Assembly: GCA_026986415.1 (NCBI GenBank)
Contig: JALSOR010000080.1
Location: forward strand, 1-36,358
Direction: 5' to 3'
From: Acidilobaceae archaeon
GTDB taxonomy: Archaea; Thermoproteota; Thermoprotei_A; Sulfolobales; Acidilobaceae
DNA length: 36,358 bases
Made by a program: the position numbers and the translations under genes. Under the pieces are notes generated by a model. The model ran no database searches. It was not told where the DNA came from and saw only the letters and a list, made by a program, of their open reading frames with translations. How positions within the stretch are numbered: the first letter of the stretch is position 1; every line of letters starts with the position of its first letter. Positions 33,724-36,358 of the stretch are shown piece after piece.

Positions 33724-34371
33724 ATGGTGGCCGGGAGGTTGAGGGTTCGAAGACAGTTCCTCGGGAGACACATAATGTTGAAGAAGAAGTATGGGGACAT
33801 GCTGCTCTCGGGTAAGAAGACAACAACTATACGTGTAGGCATAGTGAAGCCCAGGTACGATACGCTGATAGTCCATAGCGGGGGGAGACCGATAGCCATA
33901 GTTAGAATAGAGGATGTCACGGTCAAGAGAGTATCCGAGCTCACAGACGAGGATGCGAGGAGGGACGGGTTCCCGGATAGGAGCACGCTGATAGAGGCTC
34001 TCCGGAAAATGTATGGAAGGATAGGCGGCGACGAGCCGGTCACGATTATACGCTTCAAACTAGTAAAAAGGCTCGACAATCTTGACAGCGACGATCCCTA
34101 CATGGGGTTAACACCAGCAGAGATCGCCAGGATAAGCCTCCGATACTTGAACGATAAGCTGTCAGACGAGGAGAAGCGCATACTCAGAGACCTTACAGTC
34201 ACAGGCAGTATAAGGGGGACAGCGCAGAGGCTCTACGGGGATCCCACCAGGAGGAGTAAGATACGTGCAACGCTGAGACGCGCGTTAAAACTACTATTAC
34301 AGGAGGGTATCCTGAGCGTTAAACGGCACCCGGACACGAGAATAGAGAGTGGAGGGGGAGACAGCGCATAA
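33724..34371 (+). CDS. ASCH-domain protein with C-terminal helical domain
   Basis: Residues about 10-115 match the ASCH (PUA-like) fold: RQFLGRHIMLKKKYGDMLLSGKKTTTIRVG, then HSGGRPIAIVRIEDVTVKRVSELTDEDARRDGF and EPVTIIRFKLV. ASCH proteins are thought to bind RNA or modified nucleotides. The C-terminal 90 residues (TPAEIARISLRYLNDKLSDEEKRILRDLTVTGSIRGTAQRLYG, then SKIRATLRRALKLLLQEGILSVKR) look like a helix-turn-helix. The start is uncertain: ATG 33724, GTG 33727, or ATG 33775, which has GGGAGA upstream but would trim the conserved RQFLGRH. It precedes the transporter by 57 bp on the same strand and may belong to the same transcript. Confidence 0.78.
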   Translation: MVAGRLRVRRQFLGRHIMLKKKYGDMLLSGKKTTTIRVGIVKPRYDTLIVHSGGRPIAIVRIEDVTVKRVSELTDEDARRDGFPDRSTLIEALRKMYGRIGGDEPVTIIRFKLVKRLDNLDSDDPYMGLTPAEIARISLRYLNDKLSDEEKRILRDLTVTGSIRGTAQRLYGDPTRRSKIRATLRRALKLLLQEGILSVKRHPDTRIESGGGDSA

Positions 34372-34428: not shown

Positions 34429-35181
34429 ATGGCAGAGCCAGTTTACAGTGAGGAGTACCAGCCCGACAGGAGGCTACTACCATTAATAACATTGATAGTG
34501 CTCTTCGTGGTGAGCCTTACAGCGTCCAACTTCCTCGCGAGCAAGATATTCTCTGTACGCATCTACCGTTTCACAATAGTTGCCCCAGCGGCTGTAGCAG
34601 CGTATGCCCTCACGTTCACTTTCACCGATATTATAGGGGAGGTCTACGGGAAGAAGATGGCCAACCTCGCTGTCAGGCTCGGCTTTATAAGCCAGCTTCT
34701 CGTGCTGGCATACATCTGGATAGCCCTCAAGCTCCCCATATGGCAGCGCAGCCCGGTCAGCGAGGAAACATACAGGAGCGTCATATACAGTAGTAACGCG
34801 ATAATTATTGCAAGCCTAACCGCATACCTGGTCAGCCAGCACCACGACGTCTGGGCGTTCCACCTGTGGAAGAGGCTTACACGGGGCAAGTGGCTCTGGC
34901 TCAGGAACAATGCCAGCACGATCGTGAGCCAGTTCCTGGACACTGTGATATTCATAACTCTCGCGTTCCACTTCCTCCCAGCATTGATGGGCGGGAACCC
35001 GCTCCCGCTGAGAGTAGTCTCCAGCATAATAATTGGGCAGTATATTGTGAAAGTCCTGATAGCCCTTGCTGACACTCCCCTAGTCTATGCTGGAGTCTTC
35101 CTTATAAACAAGTACATAGCGGCAATACCGAAGCTCCAGCTCATGGGAGCAATAGATGCTGGGAGGCCTGGCAGGTCTTGA
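34429..35181 (+). CDS. Queuosine/archaeosine precursor transporter (VUT/YhhQ family)
   Basis: The 250-residue membrane protein has the vitamin-uptake-like (YhhQ, DUF165) pattern: SLTASNFLASKIFSV in the first helix, ALTFTFTDIIGEVYGKKMA, then AYLVSQHHDVWAFHLWKRLTRGKWLWLRNNASTIVSQFLDTVIFITLAF and a final VLIALADTPLVYAGVFLINK. About six membrane segments are seen. E. coli YhhQ imports the deazaguanines preQ0 and preQ1; an archaeal homologue should supply preQ0 for archaeosine in tRNA. The next gene, radical SAM, starts inside its stop (TTGA overlap), and an ArcS-like gene follows, which supports this substrate. The ATG is preceded by CGGAGGCGCAAGGGA. Confidence 0.9.
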   Translation: MAEPVYSEEYQPDRRLLPLITLIVLFVVSLTASNFLASKIFSVRIYRFTIVAPAAVAAYALTFTFTDIIGEVYGKKMANLAVRLGFISQLLVLAYIWIALKLPIWQRSPVSEETYRSVIYSSNAIIIASLTAYLVSQHHDVWAFHLWKRLTRGKWLWLRNNASTIVSQFLDTVIFITLAFHFLPALMGGNPLPLRVVSSIIIGQYIVKVLIALADTPLVYAGVFLINKYIAAIPKLQLMGAIDAGRPGRS

Positions 35182-35930
35182 TCGGCGTTTTCCCCGAGAA
35201 CGACAGGCTCGGCAGGAGGCTAGTAGTAATACTTAGAGGGTTTCCCTGCGCGTGGGGGAAGTGTACTTTCTGTCCGTTCGCCGTGGAACAGAGCCTCCAT
35301 ACTAGGCATGTAATAGAGGATAACAGGAAGATAATCGGGAAAGCCGTCCAGCTCGCCGAGGAGGGGGGCTATGAGAGGGTGGCCGTGTTCAACGGGGGGA
35401 GCTTCCACGAGCTCCCATATGATAGCGTGGAGAAGCTTAGGCCCCTGGCTAGGGGGAGAATATTCGAAGTCGAAGAGAGGAGCGAGTACGTGACGCTCGA
35501 CATGCTCGAGACCCTAATAGGATACTACAGGCCCCAACGCCTTATCGTGAGGGTCGGATTTGAGACTGCCAATGAGAGGATCCGGGAAGAGGTTCTCCGG
35601 AAAGGCATGCCGGACAGTGAGATGCTCAGGCTTAGCAGGCTCCGTCTAGAGGCCCGGGAGAGGGGGCTCCCCGTCGAGATATGGACCTACCTATTGTTCG
35701 GCATGGAGGGTATACCCGAGGATAGCGTGTATGAGAGCCTGAGAGTATTCAAGAAACTGTTCGACGGGGTTATAGCGGTCCGCTACCACCGCTATCTCCC
35801 CAGGCATCCGAGACCTGTGCCCGTGTCGGGGGACCTGGCAAGGTTCCTCGAGGAGAACGCTGATCTTGTAGACTGGGGTGGTGAGGACCAGTGGGTTATA
35901 GGGGGGAGAAAGGGGTCTGCCCCAGAATAG
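35178..35930 (+). CDS. Radical SAM protein, probable RaSEA (archaeosine formation)
   Basis: The 250-residue protein starts VVILRGFPCAWGKCTFCPFAVEQ, with a cluster motif spaced C-x4-C-x2-C rather than the canonical C-x3-C-x2-C. Other radical-SAM strands are ERVAVFNGGSFHELP, RLIVRVGFETANERIREEVLRKGM and VEIWTYLLFGMEGIPEDS. RaSEA works with ArcS: ArcS attaches lysine to preQ0 in tRNA position 15, and RaSEA cleaves the lysine adduct to give archaeosine. Family assignment rests on the TIGR01210-like look and on the neighbours, so it is partly inference. The TTG start overlaps the transporter stop, and its own 3' end overlaps the ArcS-like gene by 40 bp. Confidence 0.78.
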   Translation: MIGVFPENDRLGRRLVVILRGFPCAWGKCTFCPFAVEQSLHTRHVIEDNRKIIGKAVQLAEEGGYERVAVFNGGSFHELPYDSVEKLRPLARGRIFEVEERSEYVTLDMLETLIGYYRPQRLIVRVGFETANERIREEVLRKGMPDSEMLRLSRLRLEARERGLPVEIWTYLLFGMEGIPEDSVYESLRVFKKLFDGVIAVRYHRYLPRHPRPVPVSGDLARFLEENADLVDWGGEDQWVIGGRKGSAPE

Positions 35931-36358
35931 TCTGGGATGGCAGCGAGCTAGACTGGGTGGACCCTAAGGGTAGGAGGCTCTACCTTAGAGGGGTTGGCTG
36001 GGACTTCCTGGCAGAGTGGCCTTTCACGGAAGCACACAAACGCCTGCTAAGAGAGTACCGGCCCCAGAAACGGTACCGCCTAGGCCTGTTCATACCCTGC
36101 GCCTACGGGAAGCCCTACAGTCAGAGCTACATCCACTACCTGATAAGGAAGGCCATCGCAGACTACATCCGGAAGGGTGAGGTCCACGAGATAATACTTA
36201 CCAACGCGGGGGTTGTGCCGCGCGAGCTCGATGAGTACTGGCCATATACTGCGTACGATTGGAACCCGCTAATGGAGACCCCGGAAGTGAAGGACTGTTA
36301 CAGGAAGGTTTTGGAAGAGCGTATCATAGACTATCTGAGAAGGTTCGGGGACTACTAT
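35891..36358 (+). CDS. ArcS-like archaeosine synthase core (continues past right edge)
   Basis: This frame is open to the window edge and absent from the ORF track. A stop at 35882-35884 makes GTG 35891 the only possible upstream start, with GGTGGTGAGGA before it. The 156 visible codons include LGLFIPCAYGKPYSQSYIHY, which fits the ArcS signature PC-x3-KPY-x2-S-x2-H, and HEIILTNAGVVPRELDEYWPYTAYDWNP, matching the VPREL...YD region of ArcS/TGT-like domains. ArcS adds lysine to preQ0 already inserted in tRNA. The protein begins almost directly with this catalytic domain, so the long N-terminal TGT-like domain of euryarchaeal ArcS is missing: a compact form. Any C-terminal PUA domain would lie beyond the window. 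Confidence 0.82.
   Translation, partial: MGYRGEKGVCPRIVWDGSELDWVDPKGRRLYLRGVGWDFLAEWPFTEAHKRLLREYRPQKRYRLGLFIPCAYGKPYSQSYIHYLIRKAIADYIRKGEVHEIILTNAGVVPRELDEYWPYTAYDWNPLMETPEVKDCYRKVLEERIIDYLRRFGDYY

Follow-up and report, generated by a model that had tools for sequence, protein, structure and literature searches.

At its 3′ end the window (the whole stretch of 36,358 nucleotides analyzed here) carries three overlapping genes, which the initial annotation described as encoding a transporter, a RaSEA-like radical SAM protein and an ArcS-like protein. The question raised by this locus is whether these genes form a compact archaeosine module which relies on salvage of the precursor preQ0. Archaeosine is a structural modification of tRNA that has been linked to heat tolerance; in other Crenarchaeota the same pathway step is performed by the GAT-QueC and QueF-like archaeosine synthases, and arcS has been described as mostly absent from the Thermoproteota/Crenarchaeota.

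As outlined in Table 1, the three open reading frames were found as annotated, with overlaps of 4 bp (transporter/radical SAM) and 40 bp (radical SAM/ArcS-like), and the ArcS-like protein indeed contains the signature ascribed to it. The source genome (G000) is a MAG of 1.26 Mb in 144 contigs and is 92.5% complete. A search of this assembly located the rest of the ArcS-like gene on contig C135 (6580 down to 6276), and joining both contigs across 74 identical bases completed the protein beyond position 36358 to 232 aa. The tgtA gene, for which a place near this locus had been considered, sits on contig C5 instead (434 bits, above the cut-off of 350). The ASCH-domain gene upstream possibly belongs to the unit. 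On contig C135 (L003 2797–4876) a GHMP-kinase-family gene overlaps a DUF1464 gene; both lie 3′ of ArcS, past a convergent ORF without Pfam match.

Table 1. Features of the locus and the evidence by which they were assigned.
Feature	Positions	Strand	Details
ASCH-domain protein, upstream of transporter	33724..34371	+	Pfam; also near the transporter in G037 and G038
Transporter, Vut_1/TIGR00697 (COG1738, YhhQ type)	34429..35181	+	250 aa, ATG start; ORF and HMM matches
Compact RaSEA-like radical SAM protein	35178..35930	+	250 aa, TTG start; ORF and HMM match
CAWGKCTFC, C-x4-C-x2-C cluster motif	35247..35273	+	Residues 24–32 of the radical SAM protein; alignment
ArcS core (DUF5591) protein, first 156 of 232 aa	35891..36358	+	GTG start; runs to contig end
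ArcS signature PCAYGKPYSQSYIH = PC-x3-KPY-x2-S-x2-H	36095..36136	+	Sequence
Exact overlap of 74 bp with the end of contig C135	36285..36358	.	Assembly break inside the ArcS gene; sequence identity

The transporter scored above cut-off with both Vut_1 (172 bits) and TIGR00697 (166 bits vs a cut-off of 51), confirming its VUT/YhhQ type, and stayed below the equivalog cut-off of the E. coli-type YhhQ (42 vs 252 bits). For the radical SAM protein RaSEA is the best curated HMM match (TIGR01210, residues 9–177), but the score of 48 bits is far under the NCBIfam equivalog cut-off of 212. Its C-x4-C-x2-C cysteines are invariant across 11 aligned relatives, and radical SAM folds dominate the structure matches of its AlphaFold model (pLDDT 92). 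Likewise, ArcS is the best curated NCBIfam match of the last gene product, again far under the cut-offs (53 bits vs 440 for NF040592, 46 bits vs 600 for NF053620), whereas Pfam DUF5591 was matched above cut-off (53 bits, cut-off 26). DUF5591 is the sole Pfam domain detected in the completed protein, in which neither a TGT-like N-terminal nor a PUA C-terminal domain was found; intact compact relatives measure 224–258 aa, most of them about 230–240 aa, with one ORF having an over-long predicted start. The only structure match of the ArcS-like model (pLDDT 84) was the DUF5591 protein 2q07, and this match was weak (TM 0.47). The signature by itself proves little, because solo DUF5591-type proteins of 181–212 aa from two further families of this order, f4 and f7 (L227–L231, L233), carry the same motif, which is thus not diagnostic of ArcS function on its own; in the phylum-wide TIGR01210 search, no RaSEA from the f4 genomes was among the matches listed. 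Since the scores lie so far under the equivalog cut-offs, both proteins were filed as a divergent, domain-reduced branch of RaSEA/ArcS.

The arrangement of the two enzyme genes was then compared among relatives. For counting the pairs an ArcS core alignment search was used; the phylum-wide TIGR01210 search was set aside for this purpose because it mostly gave partial matches to other radical SAM proteins of about 530 aa, an Elp3-like size. The compact RaSEA-ArcS pair was found in more than 20 loci, the named relatives being mostly Acidilobaceae and Desulfurococcales MAGs. Within the Acidilobaceae, RaSEA-like genes with 64–77% identity occur in some genera only and were not found in the others. 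The 40-bp RaSEA/ArcS overlap is exactly kept in six relatives from other species and genera at 63–67% RaSEA identity, and evidently this arrangement is not due to chance; other relatives show overlaps of 25–94 bp or a reversed gene order with a short gap or overlap. In families f1, f2, f8, f55, f57, f51 and f20 the two cores are adjacent in either order. Several genera from three families have the transporter gene immediately 5′ of RaSEA; this order was seen in G035, G038, G044–G047, G328, G340, G365, G419 and L140. In G064 the transporter gene stands ahead of an ArcS-RaSEA pair.

Furthermore, the phylum-wide search unveiled single-chain RaSEA-ArcS fusions of about 450–470 aa, which contain both the C-x4-C-x2-C and the ArcS core motif. 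Such fusions occur in families f6, f24, f26, f39 and f48; the ArcS core alignment search and retrieval of the loci showed that genus g12, which belongs to the same family as the window, has them too. According to NCBIfam the N-terminal part of these chains is RaSEA (74–118 bits) and the C-terminal part ArcS. Fused and compact forms separate into two fully supported groups in the trees of either domain, and the similarity matrices of both domains agree (r = 0.96 overall, 0.83 for the compact forms only). Judged from these sequences, the fusion of genes which are otherwise adjacent is strong evidence that RaSEA and ArcS function jointly. Genus g12 had also been considered as a case of a transporter without synthase, which was rejected since the fused form is present (checked in G039 and G042).

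With respect to the precursor supply, no queC, queD, GAT-QueC or QueF-like gene was found in the 92.5% complete source genome, and a single-sequence search for queE gave none either, which favors the salvage proposed initially. The best weak QueC match (C25, 530 aa) turned out to be the GMP synthase GuaA and not GAT-QueC; a second one was seen on C85 (456 aa, 19 bits). Weak hits of this kind to PF06508 are no surprise, as the superfamily includes the GMP synthases (PMC13329287). QueC is also absent from RaSEA-bearing relatives that are 95–99% complete (G031, G035, G037, G044, G045) and from the single-contig genome G419. The compact or fused pair was counted in 34 genomes, of which 26 contain the transporter only, six QueC only, two neither, and none both (G040 and G041, with a putative fused gene, were left out). 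In G029 and G031 the contig ends inside RaSEA, before any ArcS. The Fisher test for this exclusion gave p = 2e-5 by genome, which ignores shared ancestry, 0.003 by genus-level lineage and 0.015 by family. Pyrolobus fumarii (G115) has the pair and QueC but no VUT, and the only member of the window's family that yielded QueC, QueD and QueE alike (G016) lacks VUT as well; G017 and G018 from the same genus have the transporter, both being just 61–63% complete.

Several further observations were made. The two pair-bearing genomes with neither QueC nor Vut_1 (G359, G218) perhaps use another transporter. In genera g3 (G005–G010), g4 (G012–G015) and g6 (G024) of the Acidilobaceae, and at L050–L052 and L163, Vut_1 occurs together with QueC while no QueD or QueE was found; QueC was checked in G005, G006, G012, G015 and G024, the last of which has some 0.8 kb between the two genes. 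Such a gene set would be in keeping with uptake of CDG or ADG instead of preQ0. A QueF-like gene was seen within the family only in g3. The near-complete genomes G001, G002 and G004 (g2) have tgtA but gave no strong match to QueC, Vut_1, compact RaSEA, ArcS core or QueF-like. G035 encodes, besides a normal TgtA, a distant TGT-like protein of 481 aa (L157, G035:C37; 24.5 bits to TgtA).

Taken together, the locus most probably encodes a salvage-type archaeosine module, to which we assign a probability of about three in four; the initially proposed preQ0 salvage followed by modification on tRNA is the best-supported reading, given the missing de novo and QueF-like genes and the RaSEA and ArcS best matches. 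The transporter would import preQ0 or a direct precursor, as gene linkage and the exclusion with QueC suggest. TgtA, encoded elsewhere in the genome, would then exchange tRNA G15 for preQ0, which is the known activity of its family. From the chemistry of the respective families, the compact ArcS core may attach lysine to the nitrile of preQ0, after which the compact RaSEA may use a 5′-deoxyadenosyl radical to cleave the lysine, leaving archaeosine. The overlapping frames suggest that one message serves for both subunits, in line with the finding that ArcS of Thermococcus kodakarensis transfers lysine only when complexed with RaSEA (PMC11298593). As no de novo preQ0 synthesis was detectable in the genome, archaeosine in the source organism should depend on an outside supply. 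Counted against the salvage reading are the low scores of both enzymes, the fact that the radical SAM protein has its closest structurally solved relative in queuine lyase (see below), tRNA binding by an ArcS core without TGT-like and PUA domains, the genomes G359 and G218, and the incompleteness of the MAG.

The top PDB match of the radical SAM protein is the queuine lyase 6p78, both by sequence (56–66 bits, phmmer E 3e-14) and by fold (TM 0.71/0.77). Together with the near-equal size (250 vs 251 aa), the low TIGR01210 score and a transporter family that also serves queuine or preQ1 salvage (PMC5372724), this would be consistent with a protein that cleaves a queuine-like compound after its import, yielding a base that can be used, while the ArcS core acts separately. 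We regard this as very unlikely. PDB searches with the radical SAM protein yielded no RaSEA structure, so the likeness shows its superfamily branch and not its substrate, and queuine lyase may simply be the one protein in this branch with a solved structure. RaSEA is favored by the pairing with an ArcS core, which is present in nearly all genomes with a sufficiently long contig, by the single-chain joining of both domains, by TgtA of the archaeal G15 type as the only TGT detected in the source genome (a queuosine-type bTGT was not found there), and by the QueC-bearing genomes of P. fumarii and G016, which hold the pair alongside their own preQ0 supply. The compact ArcS core might also use ammonia or glutamine directly or halt at an adduct, so that the final base or the route would differ from the lysine route. 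The absence of the N-terminal and PUA domains would be compatible with this, as would the report that Methanocaldococcus jannaschii ArcS uses ammonium, asparagine or glutamine (PMC11298593). The steady pairing and fusion with a RaSEA domain point to the two-step lysine route, however, and render such a deviation improbable.

It is likewise unlikely that the pair produces archaeosine and the transporter carries something else, i.e. preQ1, queuine, CDG or an unrelated compound. COG1738 subfamilies appear to differ in substrate (PMC5372724), and the joint occurrence of Vut_1 and QueC in g3, g4 and g6 would agree with CDG import in those genera. In pair carriers, by contrast, VUT and QueC are mutually exclusive. 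The VUT gene of the window overlaps RaSEA, and in several families VUT adjoins RaSEA. Where QueC is lacking, preQ0 itself would be the only compound to feed this TgtA. A de novo synthesis of preQ0 whose queC, queD and queE genes merely fell into gaps of a fragmented MAG is extremely improbable, as QueC is missing in more complete relatives and in the single-contig genome, and queD and queE are undetected in the source genome as well.

The salvage reading bears on the biology of these organisms. A salvage of preQ0 in Archaea was suggested earlier from the transporter distribution (PMC5372724). The present data add genomic evidence that salvage, hitherto no more than a prediction for Archaea, takes the place of synthesis in several families, which makes archaeosine a testable nutrient-dependent modification in hyperthermophiles. 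With evenly balanced confidence we propose that archaeosine may be a vitamin-like, diet-dependent trait in many Thermoproteota, in which obligate preQ0 scavengers finish the base with a minimal ArcS-RaSEA of about 480 residues, encoded by overlapping genes or as one fused enzyme. In a review table, archaeosine was not found in tRNA of cultured Stetteria hydrogenophila (PMC6313347); NCBI places Stetteria in the Acidilobaceae, and a scavenger short of supply could explain its lack of archaeosine. Furthermore, the synthase would be narrowed to these roughly 480 residues, and the natural single-chain form could ease work on the unsolved ArcS-RaSEA-tRNA complex. Our results also suggest that the view of ArcS as lacking in most Crenarchaeota should be revised to account for domain-reduced forms under the standard model cut-offs.

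Compared with known systems, the GAT-QueC and QueF-like synthases are proteins unrelated to the pair described here, and neither was found in the source genome. E. coli YhhQ, which is needed for preQ0 transport (PMC5372724), shares the Vut_1/TIGR00697 membership (COG1738/QPTR) with the window transporter, whereas the latter is archaeal and linked to archaeosine instead of queuosine genes. The bacterial queuine lyase QueL of Clostridium spiroforme resembles the radical SAM protein in sequence, fold and size and acts, like the module proposed here, in 7-deazaguanine salvage; QueL converts queuine to preQ1, whereas the archaeal protein has an ArcS core as its partner or fusion domain and comes from a host with archaeal TgtA. 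The closest counterpart is the ArcS-RaSEA system of T. kodakarensis, whose ArcS accepts even the preQ0 nucleoside as substrate (PMC11298593). Common to both are the ArcS core signature, a RaSEA-type partner and an archaeal TgtA in the genome. In contrast to a standard ArcS (about 515–575 aa by NCBIfam model lengths), the protein described here has 232 aa and neither a TGT-like nor a PUA domain, and its partner comprises 250 aa compared with 313 for the RaSEA model. Furthermore, unlike in T. kodakarensis, the two genes overlap here, a sister clade carries them as a fusion, and the compact pair occurs in the Thermoproteota, from which arcS is said to be largely missing.
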